Shown here: piece by piece, positions 1-6,630 of the stretch
Numbering within the stretch: position 1 is the first letter of the stretch
How the letters are laid out: each line of letters begins with the position of its first letter
NCBI GenBank assembly: GCA_007136585.1
Contig: SLGR01000198.1
Location: forward strand, 1-6,630
Length of the DNA: 6,630 bases
Source: Candidatus Sumerlaeota bacterium
GTDB taxonomy: Bacteria; CG03; SLGR01
Direction of reading: 5' to 3'
Notes under the pieces: model-generated
What the model was told of the DNA's origin: nothing
Database searches by the model: none
What the model saw: the letters and a program-made list of their open reading frames with translations, nothing else
Translations under genes and position numbers: made by a program

Positions 1-179
1 CATTCTTTTCTTTCCTCCAATGCGTTTAAACTTCCCAGGCGACTTAACTCCATTACTAATGCAGCACCGAATACCGTAGCCGTTTTTATCTGCGGTCTTA
101 TACGATCGTCTTTTATCTGATCTATCCGACTTCTCAGATTGTATACTTTATCCGAATATCTCAGAAATCTTTTTAAGAC
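1..179 (-). CDS. Transposase, N-terminal fragment (runs off window; no conventional start codon)
   Basis: Reading 179 down to 1 gives about 59 uninterrupted codons beginning VLKRFLRYSDKVYNLRS, followed by RIRPQIKTATVFGAAL and LSRLGSLNALEE. The pattern 'RPQI-T-TVF' followed by 'RLGSLNALE' is typical of the N-terminus of IS-encoded DDE-type transposases found next to DUF6788 ORFs; this rests on recall of the family. The catalytic core lies outside the window. The frame has no ATG, GTG or TTG between its upstream stop (near 200) and an internal ATG about 42 codons into the homologous region. It is in the +1 frame relative to the accessory ORF, whose TAA is at 186-184. Translation may therefore need a rare start or a frameshift, or the copy may be decayed. 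The coordinate 179 marks where the recognisable sequence begins, not a proven start. Confidence 0.75.
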
Positions 180-183
180 AGCT

Positions 184-504
184 TTATCCTTTCTTTTTCA
201 ATCGCTCCCAGTAACTATCCGATATCTTCTCCAGCAACTGCAATATGTCCCGGTATCTTGTAACCCATTTTTTTACTTGTTCTTCTTTTTCTTTAGGGAT
301 GTACAACTGCTCAAGATTCCCGTTCTTGCTGCGGCTGAGATACATGGATTTATGTTTTTCTCCCCTATAGCACTTGCAGCCTTCTGTCCCGCAAGTGTGC
401 TGCCGGACTGTAAGCGAACCCCTGACGAACTCTCCCCAGCCAATATGGGGTTTCAACTTTGAGCGACTGTTCCTCTCTTTTTCTGACATCTGTATTCTTT
501 TCAC
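184..504 (-). CDS. DUF6788-type IS accessory protein
   Basis: This is a 106-residue basic protein with no known enzymatic role. The centre carries the family-like pattern RGSLTVRQHTCGTEGCKC (roughly residues 28-45), with cysteines at 38, 43 and 45 that could bind a metal. It continues through a 'Y-S-NG-L-Q-YIPKE' stretch (about 55-72) to a charged, probably helical tail (73-106, KEEQVKKWVTRYRDILQLLEK). Family knowledge: small DUF6788 proteins often sit just upstream of IS transposases. Here the transposase frame follows within a few bases, so the protein is probably part of the element. The start is GTG at 504-502, chosen because AAGGAGGAG lies 5 nt upstream. An in-frame ATG at 489-487 is a less well-placed alternative. 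Confidence 0.75.
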   Translation of the reverse strand: MKRIQMSEKERNSRSKLKPHIGWGEFVRGSLTVRQHTCGTEGCKCYRGEKHKSMYLSRSKNGNLEQLYIPKEKEEQVKKWVTRYRDILQLLEKISDSYWERLKKKG

Positions 505-619: not shown

Positions 620-1657
620 CTAGTTACGGAATCGCTGAGTCGACCTGATGAACCCTTCCAGCACCTCCCAGCTTTCCTTCAGCCGCTCTCTGAGGTCGCC
701 GGATTTCCGGACCGGATATCCCCCGGAACCCGATGCCTTGAGCATCGCCCTGTAAAGCTCCCCGGCTGTAACTGACCCTGCTGGTATAAAAGGTATCCCC
801 ATATACTCGCAGAAACTGCTCACCTTGGGGTCGTAACTCAGCCCAACCGCCGGAACCCCGCATATAACCGCCGCCACGAGGGCGTGAAGTCTGCCGGCTG
901 CTACAACACTGGCCCCGGAAAAATATTCAAAGATATCTCCGGGGGTCTCCCAGGAGATCTCTTCAATTCCACCTCCCATTGAGTCCAGGCCGCGGTTTAA
1001 AGGCACGCTTAAGCACCTGTACCCTTTCTCCCGGAGTTTATCCGCGGCCGCCGACGCGGCCTCCATAAGCGGGAGAGATTTCCAGCGGCGGAGCGAGAAG
1101 ACCGCCGTAGGCGTCGGGGGTTCTTTTTTTCTTACACGCTCCGGATCGTACCCGAATACAGGGTCCGCCCCGAGCTTATACACCACTCCGGGGCAGAGTC
1201 TTTCAAAGAGTCTCCCGGACGCCGCGTCCCTGAGTATGACCAGTTCCAACCCCTTAAGTGTAAAAGCAGCCATAAACCTGCTCAAAGGGCGGTTGAACGG
1301 CCCCAGGCCCTGGTTAAAAACCACGGTCTTCTTCCCCGTTATCCGGGCGAGCCAGATAAGGCCGAGGTAGTAATATAAAGTAAACGGACCCGAGGAATCC
1401 TGCAGGAGGCTCCCGCCGCCCAGGAGCAGTATATCCGAAGAAAAAAGAGCCGCAACCACTTTCCGGAGCGAGTATCGGTTAACGCATATACAGGCGGCGG
1501 CGGGGCAGCTCCCCGGCCTGATCAGCACCTTTATCCCGGCAGAGGGGAAACGCCGGCGCAGCTCGGAGGTTATAGATTCAAGTATAAGCTCGTCGCCGGC
1601 ATTTTCAAACCCGTAATACCCGGCAATAAGAATACCGGGATCTTTTTCCTTTATCAT
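620..1657 (-). CDS. csaB: CsaB-type polysaccharide pyruvyl transferase
   Basis: This 345-residue cytosolic glycosyltransferase-fold enzyme is predicted to transfer a pyruvyl ketal from phosphoenolpyruvate to a sugar of a cell-surface or cell-wall glycan. The length and motifs suit the CsaB/PF04230 family: GYYGFENAGDE near residues 13-23, LLGGGSLLQDSSG at 78-90, NQGLGPF at 115-121, LRDAASGRLF at 142-151, GADPVF at 163-168, SLRRW at 188-192, GRLHAL at 255-260 and YDPKVSSF at 275-282. No frameshift or lost block is seen. The ATG at 1657 follows the upstream TAA by 12 nt, with AAGG overlapping that stop, which indicates cotranscription and likely coupling. In Bacillus, CsaB pyruvylates secondary cell-wall polymers that bind SLH domains; the true acceptor here is unknown. 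It ends in TAG just before the insertion sequence. Other pyruvyltransferases (WcaK, EPS types) share the fold, but the YDPKV and GGGSLLQD blocks favour CsaB. Confidence 0.92.
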   Translation of the reverse strand: MIKEKDPGILIAGYYGFENAGDELILESITSELRRRFPSAGIKVLIRPGSCPAAACICVNRYSLRKVVAALFSSDILLLGGGSLLQDSSGPFTLYYYLGLIWLARITGKKTVVFNQGLGPFNRPLSRFMAAFTLKGLELVILRDAASGRLFERLCPGVVYKLGADPVFGYDPERVRKKEPPTPTAVFSLRRWKSLPLMEAASAAADKLREKGYRCLSVPLNRGLDSMGGGIEEISWETPGDIFEYFSGASVVAAGRLHALVAAVICGVPAVGLSYDPKVSSFCEYMGIPFIPAGSVTAGELYRAMLKASGSGGYPVRKSGDLRERLKESWEVLEGFIRSTQRFRN

Positions 1658-1669
1658 AGTTCCCGGCCT

Positions 1670-3892
1670 TTACTCCAGATGTTTCAGTCCGGCTTCGGCC
1701 CGCCGGTTTCCGGGGACCAGCCGCTTTACAGCAAGGTACAGCCTCCGGGCCTCCTCTTTCATCCCAAGTTCAAGGTTAAGGTCAGCGGCCTTTAGAAGAA
1801 GTTCCGGGTCAGACGGAATCAGTTCAAGAGCATCTGAAACCCTGGAGAGGGCTTCTTCCGTCTTTTCTTCTCTCTGCAGGTCGGCTGCGGAGTCTAGAAA
1901 TTCTGAGATCTCTTCCTCTCTATCCTCTCTTAAAGCCGCTGCGGTTCTAAGGGCCCCGGAGACCGCCGCGGCTTCTTCAGGGTAAATTTCAAGAGCCGAG
2001 ATATAGGCGGCGGCCGCTTCTGAGACTCTCCCTGCAAGTTCAAGGTGGCGGGCGTAATTTATAAGATACCCTGCGGATCTCTCAAACTCCAGTAAACGGG
2101 CGTAAAGACGCGCGGCTTCCCCGTGCTTACCCAGGGATCCCAGGGTATCACCCTTCATTCTCAATATATCCGGGGAGACAGGGTTTATAGAGAAAGCCTT
2201 CTCCAGATCCCGCAGAGCCTCTTCCGGCTCCTCCTCCTGAAGAAGCATAACAGCCCGGTTAAAATATATCTCATCGTACCCGGGGTTTGCCCCGATGGCC
2301 TCGGTATAAGCGGAAACTGCTCTGCGGCGGTAAGCAGGATCGTCGTAGCTCATACGGGCGTACACGTTTCCTAGTTCGTACAGGGAATCCACTATGGGGT
2401 AGTAACTGCGGCTTTTCTGAAGCTCCTCCTCGGCATCAAAGAGCCTTCCCTGCCTTGAATATCCGAAACCGGAAAAGTAATGAACCGCGGACCTGAAATA
2501 CCTGTAATTGTAAAGAGTTACCCAGATAAGAAGCGCCCCGGCAGCAGCCGGGAGTAACCGGCTCAGCCGCCCGGTCCTTATTACTCTTTTCGGGCTGGAT
2601 GCCAGACGCCGCCCCTGACCTGCCAGAAACCCGAGATTCAGCCAGAATACAAGGGCGGGTATGGGAAAGAAGAGAGATACGTTCAGAAGGTTATCAACCC
2701 AGAACGAGAATGCCGCCACCGTAAGAAGAAGCGCCCCTGTCCGGGCCCCGCCTGTGGCGTGCCGGCAGAGCGCGGTTGCGTACTTCAGAAAGACTATCAT
2801 AAAAAGCAGGTAAAGCCCCGTTCCGGCTATACCTGTCTGAGCCAGTATCTCCAGAAAGAAATTATGGGCGTTATTCGCGTGTGTCCTGAGATCCCTGTAC
2901 TGCGGTCTTTCCACCAGGCGCCCCTGGTAAAAAGGATAGAATATTTCAAAATTCCCCCACCCCCGCCCGGCCAGCGGGGTATCCCGGAACATCTTAAGCG
3001 AAGACTCCCATATCAGCTGTCTCTGAGTAAGGGCCGCTCCCATCTGCCTGGTACTGAACATTGAAACCACCCTCTGCGAGAACTGACGCGAAGAGACCGC
3101 AAATACACCTCCTGTCAGAACCGCCGCCGCGGCCGATACCAGGATATAACTCCTTACCTTGCGTGGCAGGGCCTCTTTCTTAATCAGGGCGTAGATAACG
3201 AGAAAACCTATCCCGGAGAAGAGCCCTAAAAAGGCGCTGCGAGTCATTGCTATGCTGAGCCCCGCCAGGTTAACCGTAAGAAGCAGGACCCACCCCAGTA
3301 TTTTTTTCTCTCCCGCGGCACGGTAAATTATCCAGTACACGGCTACCATAAGAAATGAAGAAAGGAAATTGGGGTTTCCCAGAGTGGAGATACTCCTCTG
3401 CCCGTAGGGATCAATCCCTTCAGGCCATATGAAATCCAGGTTGAGAAACTGAAGCACCGCGTAAGCCGAGGCAAGGGTCGCGGCCGCTATGACCACCGCT
3501 CTTATCTTCTTTCCCATCCTCTCGTCTGAGGCGGCGGCAAAGTAAAAAGGCAGCACCCCGCTGAAAAAAAACATCAGAAGAGCCCTTCCCGAGTACCCTT
3601 TTATAGCCGAAGAGTACCCGGGGAACCTTATAATCGAGACCGGCAGTGATAAGAGACAGAACCCGAAAAAAAGAAGAAGGGGCAGGTCAAGAAAAGTTGC
3701 CGGGAGCCTGACCTCCCTCTTCCCGGCGAGGCCGACTGCAAGAAGAAAGACCGAGAGGGCAAACATAACCTGGAGAACCCTCTCCTGTATAAGGTACGGG
3801 TTCCTGGTCAGGTTTGTAAAGAAAATAAGCGGTGATATAAGGAGGGCTGCCAGAAATATCCCGCGGGATAAGCCTGTTGTATTTACCTTCAA
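1670..3892 (-). CDS. O-antigen ligase/polymerase-like membrane protein with C-terminal TPR domain (second copy)
   Basis: This 740-residue protein is predicted to join or polymerise lipid-linked glycans on the outer face of the cytoplasmic membrane. About a dozen hydrophobic segments fill residues 10-465. Within them are GNPNF at 172-176, TRSAFLG at 217-223, a large extracytoplasmic loop at about 267-355 with GRGWGNFEIFYPFYQ (309-323) and the histidine block THANNAHNFFLEIL (337-350), and DNLLNVSLF at 400-408. This is the Wzy_C/WaaL-family pattern. Residues about 480-740 form a TPR solenoid, for example around 502-537, 540-571, 606-638 and 693-725, probably outside the cytoplasm if the last helix (446-465) is as drawn. 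The start is TTG at 3892-3890, overlapping the preceding gene's TGA as TTGA; there is no other early start before a Met at residue 43. Ligase versus polymerase cannot be told from sequence. Confidence 0.9.
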   Translation of the reverse strand: MKVNTTGLSRGIFLAALLISPLIFFTNLTRNPYLIQERVLQVMFALSVFLLAVGLAGKREVRLPATFLDLPLLLFFGFCLLSLPVSIIRFPGYSSAIKGYSGRALLMFFFSGVLPFYFAAASDERMGKKIRAVVIAAATLASAYAVLQFLNLDFIWPEGIDPYGQRSISTLGNPNFLSSFLMVAVYWIIYRAAGEKKILGWVLLLTVNLAGLSIAMTRSAFLGLFSGIGFLVIYALIKKEALPRKVRSYILVSAAAAVLTGGVFAVSSRQFSQRVVSMFSTRQMGAALTQRQLIWESSLKMFRDTPLAGRGWGNFEIFYPFYQGRLVERPQYRDLRTHANNAHNFFLEILAQTGIAGTGLYLLFMIVFLKYATALCRHATGGARTGALLLTVAAFSFWVDNLLNVSLFFPIPALVFWLNLGFLAGQGRRLASSPKRVIRTGRLSRLLPAAAGALLIWVTLYNYRYFRSAVHYFSGFGYSRQGRLFDAEEELQKSRSYYPIVDSLYELGNVYARMSYDDPAYRRRAVSAYTEAIGANPGYDEIYFNRAVMLLQEEEPEEALRDLEKAFSINPVSPDILRMKGDTLGSLGKHGEAARLYARLLEFERSAGYLINYARHLELAGRVSEAAAAYISALEIYPEEAAAVSGALRTAAALREDREEEISEFLDSAADLQREEKTEEALSRVSDALELIPSDPELLLKAADLNLELGMKEEARRLYLAVKRLVPGNRRAEAGLKHLE

Positions 3893-6111
3893 GATCCGAG
3901 TTCTTCCAGTTTCCTCTCCAGGTTACCGTCACCGGGGCGAAGCTCAAGCATTCTCCTGTAAATTGAAGCGGCATCTTCCTTTCTCTGCTGCTCTTCATAG
4001 AACGCCCCCAGGGCCCCGAGAATATCCAGATCCTCCGGGTTGGCCTCAACCCCCTCCAGGAAGACCCTTTCCACCTCGTCGGTCTCACCCATTCTTCTCA
4101 GAAAACTGGCAAGGTTGAGAAAAGTCTCGGGAACATCGGGGTTCCTCCTGACAGGTTCCTCAAAATATCTCCGGGCTTTCTCAGTATCTCCCCGCTGTAG
4201 GTTTATCATACCCAACCTGAAGTAGGAGTAGGGAAAGACAGGATCAACTATATTGATGTACCGCCTGAAACTCCTCTCGGCCTCCTCGATGTTATCCATT
4301 CTGAGGTGCATCATCCCTTCCTGAAAATGGAGCTGGACGTAGTTAGGGAACATTGACCTTACCCGTTTATAGGCATCAACGGCCTGGGAATAATAATGTT
4401 CGGCCTCCTGCCTTCTCCCGGCCTGCATCGCCTCGGAAAGCTGGTCGTTATAGACGTTTCCTTCAAAATAATAGGCCATTATAAATGACGGGTGGTACTC
4501 CTGCACCCTGTCGTAGAGTTCAAGAGCATCATCCCAGGCTCTGCGCTTGGAATGAGCTATGGCCCGGTTATGGTACCTGTTGGCGTTAAACCGCAGGGCG
4601 GCCTGAACCGAAGTTCGGTACCCCAGTATCATAAGTCCCAGTACCAGTATGAGGCGCGGACCGTAATTAACGGGGACCGGAGCGGACCCTCTACCCTTCT
4701 CATCTTTAAGCGGAGCCGAATGAACCACAAGCAGCCCAAGCATAACCCAGAGGATATAACCTGTTGATACAAACCTCGGGTTTACGTCCACAAAAGCATG
4801 CGTCAGGACCCCGATCAGCCCGGCTATCAGTCCGACCAGGTAGAACTCGTCATCTGTTTTTGCTTTCCCCACCCCCACCAGGGAGAGACGCTTAACGGCC
4901 ACGTAGAATATTCCCGCCAGCAGCCAGATAAATACAGTAAGCCCGAAAACACCCTCGTCAAAGAAGACCTCCATGAACTCGTTATGGGCGTGATCCGTCT
5001 GGGTATTATGTCTTCCCTCCAGATGAAATATCTCCGGGCGCCTGTAGGCGGGGTAGACTATCCTGAAAGTCTCTATCCCGTGACCAAGGAAAAAGGCCTG
5101 TGCCGGGCTTACGAATATAGGCTCCGAGATCATCTTCATAGTGGAACCCCAGGTGAAGAGTCTGAAAGTTATGGACCGCATTCTCTGCATTGAGGCTATG
5201 GTGACCGCAACGGAAGCAAAGAGCATCACAGCCGCTGTAATCCCCAGAGCTATCCTCTTTAAAACCTTCGGGTTTCCCTCAATGAGAAAGAGGGTGGCAA
5301 GAACAACAAAAACCGATATGTCGGCTGCGGCGCCCAGCCAGCTTCCCTTCGCCCCGCACCTGTATATATTATAGAGAACCGCAGCTATCATCGCGTACCA
5401 GTGCCACTTGCGGGTAAGCATAGCCTTGGCAAATACCAGAGGAAGCACCAGCACAAGCCATGCGCCGAAGAAATTCGGGTTGCCGAAAGTTGAGAAAGTC
5501 CCCCTGAAGGCCCCGGCCCATATATGCCAGTCAAGGCCGGCGGCCTGAATTATCCCGTAAACAACTATTATGACCAGGGATCCCATCACCCAGTTGAGCA
5601 CCCTCATGAAATCCTCTTTACGGTTAAACTCATATACTATCGCAAGGAAACTCCCCACATAAACTATGCGCCGGAGAAGTCCGGGCTCAAAGGTCTGGAG
5701 CTTGTATGGGGTCAGGGCAAACGATATCAGTCCCGAGAGCAGAAAGAGAAGCGCCGGAACCAGAACGTATTTCCTGTCGGATGCCAGTTTGAAGCTGCCG
5801 CGGTTAATCCTCTTTGCCAGCCAGATAATCAGAACCAGCGGCCCCCCTGTCTCAAGAAGTGTTATTTTTATCTGGGCAGAGTCATAGGTCTCAAGAAAAA
5901 AATGCACGGCTATGGTGCTGACAAGTATAGGAATAAGGTACTTCAGCATCCTGTCGGCGTACTCGTCAAGCCTGTTGAATATTATTCCGAGAAAAAGCCC
6001 GCCGATACTTAGAAAAGCTATTATATTGTGGATATTCTGCAGAAGGTTGCCGTCAAATATCCTTAGAAAAGGTATCAGAACGAAAAATGAAAATAAGATA
6101 ATATCAGTCAT
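3889..6111 (-). CDS. O-antigen ligase/polymerase-like membrane protein with C-terminal TPR domain (first copy)
   Basis: This 740-residue protein has the same architecture as the gene that follows it. Hydrophobic segments run from residue 3 to about 465, with a last one near 484-500. Family landmarks are RGTFSTFGNPNFFGAW at 203-218, KGSWLG at 255-260, GHGIETFRIVYPAYRRPE at 343-360, the histidine block TDHAHNEFMEVFFDEG at 372-387, and FVDVNPRF at 440-447. The C-terminal 240 residues are TPR-like helical pairs, for example around 505-538, 591-624, 626-658, 660-692 and 694-727, ending EEQQRKEDAASIYRRMLELRP. TPR units may bind partner proteins or measure and hold glycan-assembly components; this is inference. 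The ATG at 6111 has GGAGA about 9 nt upstream. The gene begins 38 nt after the tRNA 3' end and overlaps the next gene by 4 nt. Where the second copy has TRSAFLG this copy has AKGSWLG. Confidence 0.9.
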   Translation of the reverse strand: MTDIILFSFFVLIPFLRIFDGNLLQNIHNIIAFLSIGGLFLGIIFNRLDEYADRMLKYLIPILVSTIAVHFFLETYDSAQIKITLLETGGPLVLIIWLAKRINRGSFKLASDRKYVLVPALLFLLSGLISFALTPYKLQTFEPGLLRRIVYVGSFLAIVYEFNRKEDFMRVLNWVMGSLVIIVVYGIIQAAGLDWHIWAGAFRGTFSTFGNPNFFGAWLVLVLPLVFAKAMLTRKWHWYAMIAAVLYNIYRCGAKGSWLGAAADISVFVVLATLFLIEGNPKVLKRIALGITAAVMLFASVAVTIASMQRMRSITFRLFTWGSTMKMISEPIFVSPAQAFFLGHGIETFRIVYPAYRRPEIFHLEGRHNTQTDHAHNEFMEVFFDEGVFGLTVFIWLLAGIFYVAVKRLSLVGVGKAKTDDEFYLVGLIAGLIGVLTHAFVDVNPRFVSTGYILWVMLGLLVVHSAPLKDEKGRGSAPVPVNYGPRLILVLGLMILGYRTSVQAALRFNANRYHNRAIAHSKRRAWDDALELYDRVQEYHPSFIMAYYFEGNVYNDQLSEAMQAGRRQEAEHYYSQAVDAYKRVRSMFPNYVQLHFQEGMMHLRMDNIEEAERSFRRYINIVDPVFPYSYFRLGMINLQRGDTEKARRYFEEPVRRNPDVPETFLNLASFLRRMGETDEVERVFLEGVEANPEDLDILGALGAFYEEQQRKEDAASIYRRMLELRPGDGNLERKLEELGS

Positions 6112-6282: not shown

Positions 6283-6630
6283 TTATCCCCGATCCGGGGG
6301 AGTCTTCAGGCATTCAAAAATCGTAAGGGTATACTCCCCCTCTCCGATGATATTATCCCGGTAACCCGAGAGGGTATCCTCAAGCGGGAGTATCTCACTT
6401 ACCTTAAACCCCGCCCCGGATAGAAAACCCTGCCAGTCTCCGCGGGAAAAAAGCCCCTGCTTATGCACATCCGTGATAACCTCAAGTTTTCCCTCGCGTC
6501 TTATAAGGTATAGAAGAACCGCCTCGTAAAACCCCGGATCCCGGGAAAAGTTATTCTCAAATAAAGTAACGCTCACACCCCCTCCGGAGCCTGTATAGAC
6601 AAAATTATTCTCCCGGAAATCCTCACGCAG
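6283..6630 (-). CDS. Probable class I SAM-dependent methyltransferase, C-terminal part (5' end outside window)
   Basis: The frame is open from the window edge at 6630 to TAA at 6285-6283, giving 115 residues of C-terminus; a start at an internal GTG (6576) is not needed because the frame continues upstream. It reads REDFRENNFVYTGSGGG, then VTLFENNFSRDPGFYEAVLL, then TDVHKQGLFSRGDWQGFL followed by GAGFKV, and finally GEYTLTIFECLK. The order 'TD-H--GLF----W---L--AGF' with a late 'EYT--F-CLK' strand is typical of the C-terminal third of class I methyltransferases; this rests on family recall. The SAM-binding glycine motif would be upstream, outside the window, so substrate and catalysis cannot be judged. 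It reads in the same direction as the tRNA, whose promoter begins 17 nt past its stop, so it is likely the last gene of a separate unit. Confidence 0.7.
   Translation of the reverse strand: MREDFRENNFVYTGSGGGVSVTLFENNFSRDPGFYEAVLLYLIRREGKLEVITDVHKQGLFSRGDWQGFLSGAGFKVSEILPLEDTLSGYRDNIIGEGEYTLTIFECLKTPPDRG

Follow-up and report, generated by a model that had tools for sequence, protein, structure and literature searches.

Surface-glycan polymerases and ligases share one fold and are usually inseparable by sequence, and membership of the Wzy_C superfamily cannot by itself distinguish a polymerase, an LPS ligase and a protein O-oligosaccharyltransferase. In E. coli WaaL, the residues R215, R288 and H338 are known to be important, and the same Arg, Arg and His are conserved in PglL (PMC3643930), which, along with PilO, represents the O-oligosaccharyltransferases carrying a Wzy_C domain. 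In RodA, a GT-C polymerase, the role of WaaL His338 is taken by Asp262 (PMC10449877), and an acidic residue at this place is therefore plausible for a polymerase. The residue roles used below are taken from these two papers. Mutants of Porphyromonas gingivalis in waaL and in wzy no longer have A-LPS or the cargo that is linked to it (PMC3120885).

The locus described here belongs to this known enzyme superfamily. What is new is a phylum-wide tandem of TPR-armed, WaaL-fold proteins, in which one active site is canonical and the other is altered; no paper on such a TPR-fused ligase pair was found in the literature. The window, that is, the whole stretch of DNA analysed, is an entire contig of 6630 bases (C192) from a 1.88-Mb draft genome. 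Its features, read from the upstream end, are as follows.

6630-6283, minus strand: partial upstream gene, 3' end only
6224-6150, minus strand: tRNA-Thr(CGU), 38 nt upstream of the LigA start
3889..6111, minus strand: LigA, membrane protein of 740 aa with a Wzy_C/WaaL fold and C-terminal TPRs, start codon ATG
3892..4596, minus strand: TPR solenoid of LigA, residues 506-740, predicted periplasmic
1670..3892, minus strand: LigB, membrane protein of 740 aa with a Wzy_C/WaaL fold and C-terminal TPRs, start codon TTG
1673..2509, minus strand: TPR solenoid of LigB, residues 462-740, predicted periplasmic
620..1657, minus strand, same direction: CsaB-type polysaccharide pyruvyl transferase (TIGR03609, PF04230), 12 nt after LigB
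504-184, minus strand: DUF6788 gene, downstream of CsaB

Both large reading frames are intact and overlap by 4 nt (TTGA). As the earlier note had claimed, the two genes are equal in length, with 2223 nt and 740 codons each; both lie on the minus strand. It had also regarded the identical length as probably a coincidence, and this was borne out, since the pairs of relatives measure 706/746, 747/748, 743/761, 695/598 and 951/911 aa; any meaning in the equal length is thus ruled out. The partial gene at 6283-6630 has no relatives among the fetched neighbours, no NCBIfam family and only a weak Pfam match. In some relatives, the position of the tRNA-Thr(CGU) upstream of LigA is occupied by a PorV-family gene. 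At the other end (window 1-504, minus strand), another reading frame beyond the DUF6788 gene leaves the contig end, and relatives have ruvC there. Transposases are often accompanied by DUF6788 genes; a mobile element may have inserted near this one, and the assembly may have been broken by the insertion.

In a Pfam scan, LigB matches Wzy_C with 63.7 bits, which is over the cut-off. For LigA, the full-protein scan gives 30.5 bits against the cut-off of 31.7, and 33.7 bits, over the cut-off, with the neighbouring matches in frame included. The C-termini of both are matched by TPR families. Aligned with each other, the two proteins are 24% identical over 619 columns (E=4e-24), a sequence similarity that far exceeds chance. 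In NCBIfam, both membrane domains match TIGR00947 (IctB-like) best, at about 72 bits against a curated cut-off of 366. The IctB-like group shares the NPN motif, which reads NPNL in cyanobacteria (PMC4594306) and NPNF in LigA and LigB; unlike them, its 425-position model has no TPR arm. The Wzy_C domain is shared with PglL and PilO; neither protein matches PglL_A (PF15864) or Wzy_C_2 (PF11846) at E<=0.1 in Pfam, and no pilin gene was noticed nearby.

When the PDB was searched with the full LigA and LigB sequence profiles, only TPR proteins were obtained among the best 60 matches, and a structural comparison was therefore used. The AlphaFold models (pLDDT 89 for LigA and 92 for LigB) both find WaaL, 7tpg, as the best PDB match, with Z 21.2 over 366 of 403 residues (rmsd 4.5) for LigA and Z 22.5 over 359 of 403 residues (rmsd 4.6) for LigB. 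These matches span the whole membrane domain; the other matches listed are TPR proteins or helical repeats. No structure of a Wzy turned up for comparison. Hydropathy and the positive-inside rule give LigB 13 TM helices, with the positive loops inside and the TPR arm outside, while LigA has further N-terminal helices and its TPRs on the same side. From this simple hydropathy scan and the WaaL frame, both TPR arms are predicted to be periplasmic. The two proteins resemble WaaL in fold across the membrane domain and differ from it in an extra C-terminal TM helix, the predicted periplasmic TPR arm and the tandem arrangement.

The partners differ in the residues that correspond to the WaaL catalytic positions, all of which are on the minus strand.

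3239..3241, minus strand: LigB Arg218, equivalent of WaaL Arg215, invariant in 34/34
3020..3022, minus strand: LigB Arg291, equivalent of WaaL Arg288, invariant in 34/34
2864..2866, minus strand: LigB His343, equivalent of WaaL His338, invariant in 34/34
5347..5349, minus strand: LigA Lys255, in the position of WaaL Arg215, Lys in 39/40 LigA
5161..5163, minus strand: LigA Arg317, equivalent of WaaL Arg288, invariant in 40/40
4984..4986, minus strand: LigA His376, in the position of WaaL His338, Glu in 30/40 and His in 10/40 orthologues

The LigB profile aligns with E. coli WaaL at E=4e-9, whereby R218, R291 and H343 fall on R215, R288 and H338; LigB holds the complete WaaL triad. LigA does not: Lys stands at the Arg215 position and Glu, in most cases, at that of His338, a mapping taken from the LigA-LigB alignment and a joint alignment, as hhalign of the LigA profile against E. 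coli WaaL gave no useful match. Among 23 other Wzy_C proteins in the joint alignment, Arg occupies the first position in 20 and His is present in all 23. The motif difference that had been noticed earlier, RSAFLG against KGSWLG, proves to be the visible part of this contrast. The His-bearing LigA proteins are those of the taxonomic order to which the window belongs and of a more distant family, f5, and no more than 2 changes along the LigA tree account for the His and Glu states of position 376. As the window's LigA has His376, only the Arg-to-Lys change applies in its lineage, and not the change of His to Glu. The consistent contrast in catalytic residues is the strongest evidence of a division of labour between LigA and LigB.

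The pair is widespread. LigA orthologues were found at 80 loci in named genomes, most of which are titled Elusimicrobia, Elusimicrobiota or Endomicrobia. At 74 of these a downstream LigB could have been seen, and in 45 it lies directly after LigA (<=1.5 kb), which upholds the earlier suggestion of a conserved, coupled unit. The median gap in the 45 tandems is 4 nt; it is <=60 nt in 41, and the genes overlap in 19. The same order of genes is kept both in the window's taxonomic order (G001-G006) and in family f5 (G008-G015). There are 20 genomes without the tandem, and a LigB-type gene, whole, broken or in pieces, is located elsewhere in 8 of them. In the other 12, mostly of Endomicrobium and rumen lineages (L114, L121, L125, L127, L130, L132, L133, L135, L136, L140, L141, L151), no LigB was found and the sole match was LigA itself, as the match coordinates confirmed in the three checked. 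LigA is therefore not dependent on LigB, and in those of the LigB-less genomes that were aligned it carries Glu in place of the catalytic His.

A tree of 89 membrane domains, built by a quick method with no bootstrap, places LigA in one clade (support 100) and LigB in another (99). Wzy_C-TPR proteins of other phyla fall between the two, with a support of only 82. When LigA and LigB are constrained to form one group, the tree scores 5.5 log units worse, and the AU test does not reject it (p-AU 0.376). The path between LigA and LigB within a genome (4.0) is of much the same length as those from the two to other Wzy_C proteins (4.3 and 4.2). Across 27 genomes, the patristic distances of the two proteins are correlated (r=0.90, Mantel 0/2000), with LigB evolving about 1.3 times faster than LigA. 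Given the separate clades and the correlated distances, the two are old, distinct and inherited together. The tandem is phylum-wide in Elusimicrobiota. The earlier note had proposed an old duplication with division of labour. Its second half is supported, as distinct clades, correlated evolution and differing active-site residues speak for long-standing separate roles; a duplication specific to this lineage is neither shown nor rejected.

The adjacent CsaB matches TIGR03609 with 224.3 bits against a cut-off of 213.1. It had been considered along with the pair as a possible conserved system, and this was not supported: apart from the window, CsaB lies close to the pair in just 4 of the 80 named loci that were fetched. 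The neighbourhood counts rule it out as a core partner, and the pair with CsaB is an optional local arrangement. The usual run in the window's order is PorV-family gene, LigA, LigB, DUF5693, CsaB, RuvC, RuvA and RuvB (L066, L068), some members being absent from individual loci. Two distant loci read LigA-LigB-GalT-GlgA-DUF5693-CsaB, the order being obtained by family search in one (L153) and by matching gene lengths along with DUF5693 and CsaB hits in the other (L167). Elsewhere, YebC-RuvCAB is often downstream of the pair (RuvC in 14/51), and in the f5 genomes CsaB lies away from the pair, beside DUF5693. In all 12 phylum genomes with both located, DUF5693 adjoins CsaB (neighbours seen at L066, L068, L081, L153, L167 and L208-L221). 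This constant adjacency suggests that DUF5693, on which no paper was found, works with CsaB. The window differs in having CsaB without a detectable DUF5693; none was detected in its genome either, and the gene has apparently been lost from between LigB and CsaB.

CsaB-type pyruvyl transferases are matched in 13 of 16 phylum genomes (G000-G015). CsaB is associated with the anchoring of SLH-domain proteins to secondary wall polymers, and this role was rejected here: no SLH domain was found at E<=0.001 in any of 17 genomes, with positive controls, these being drafts of 59-97% completeness in which a few genes could be hidden. LpxC is present in 14 of 16 genomes. Together, these two observations favour pyruvylated LPS or another surface glycan over SLH anchoring.

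The following reading is considered somewhat more probable than its opposite: LigA and LigB would be co-inherited transferases of undecaprenyl-pyrophosphate-linked glycans acting in the periplasm, their TPR arms would dock partners, LigB would be a ligase and LigA would perform a different step. Both would belong to the Wzy_C/WaaL superfamily as GT-C glycosyltransferases of the inner membrane, and the same periplasmic reaction on such glycans is expected of the Wzy O-antigen polymerase (Wzy_C-type), which is of this superfamily too. The predicted periplasmic TPR arm of each is probably a docking site for partner or acceptor proteins. LigB, with its complete WaaL active site, would most likely transfer the finished glycan to an acceptor, probably lipid A-core because LpxC is present. 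LigA, with its altered active site, probably takes a different step, most simply the polymerisation of repeat units; separate wzy and waaL genes are likewise needed in P. gingivalis. We infer this polymerase, Wzy-like role from the altered residues, of which the window's LigA shows the Arg-to-Lys change only. The presence of LigA without LigB in 12 genomes would be odd for a polymerase, unless another Wzy_C protein serves there as the ligase. In the window's lineage, CsaB may add pyruvate to the glycan handled by LigA and LigB.

A bolder proposal, which we put forward tentatively, is that LigA represents an unrecognised GT-C subfamily. Having Lys instead of the first Arg and, in the majority of its members, Glu instead of His, it would be a SEDS-like acid-base polymerase that has co-evolved with a canonical TPR-armed ligase.

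It is also possible, albeit rather improbable, that both proteins are ligases serving two acceptors, with en bloc transfer to lipid A-core by one and to protein or another lipid by the other, and with the TPRs selecting the acceptor. Such a reading suits the WaaL fold and the R288 equivalent common to both, the His376 of the window's LigA, TPRs predicted on the acceptor side and the persistence of LigA without LigB in the 12 genomes. Also in its favour, type IX-like C-terminal tails (Por_Secre_tail domains) occur in 16 of 16 phylum genomes, with 25 such domains in the window's genome, and at 13 of 72 loci LigA is immediately preceded by a PorV-family gene, often with an overlap. However, neither protein matches the PglL-specific Pfam families, and the Lys and usual Glu of LigA deviate from the ligase-like relatives with which they were compared.

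The same type IX-like parts lead to a further explanation, which we hold to be unlikely. The cluster would make an anionic glycolipid anchoring type IX-secreted proteins, comparable to the A-LPS of P. gingivalis; LigA would then act as Wzy and LigB as WaaL, and CsaB would be the source of negative charge. The tails and the PorV-family genes are in its favour, along with a SprA-like protein, about 1700 aa long, that is present in 15 of 16 genomes, and the loss of A-LPS and its linked cargo in the P. gingivalis mutants mentioned at the outset. The SprA matches, however, do not reach the curated cut-off. No PorU sortase was found over the cut-off in the phylum genomes, and, since most matches cover the tail domain only, these candidates were rejected as PorU. 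Moreover, PorV-family genes are known outside type IX systems, and the PorV link is missing in most loci, the window included.

That LigA is a non-catalytic scaffold with a ligase ancestor, LigB being the sole enzyme, would account for two of the three catalytic positions being changed in most LigA, but it is very doubtful, as LigA is the more conserved partner, retains many invariant loop residues (R317, R357, E365, T370, H374, E381) and remains in genomes that have lost LigB.

An adjacent pair kept across a deep phylum, with a consistent catalytic difference between its members, amounts to a natural experiment on what separates the activities of surface-glycan polymerases and ligases. If the SEDS-like reading of LigA is true, polymerase and ligase would be distinguishable by the active site within one operon. 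The survey of CsaB and SLH domains suggests that CsaB need not be accompanied by detectable SLH-domain proteins, and the pair hints at how a barely cultured phylum may build its surface.
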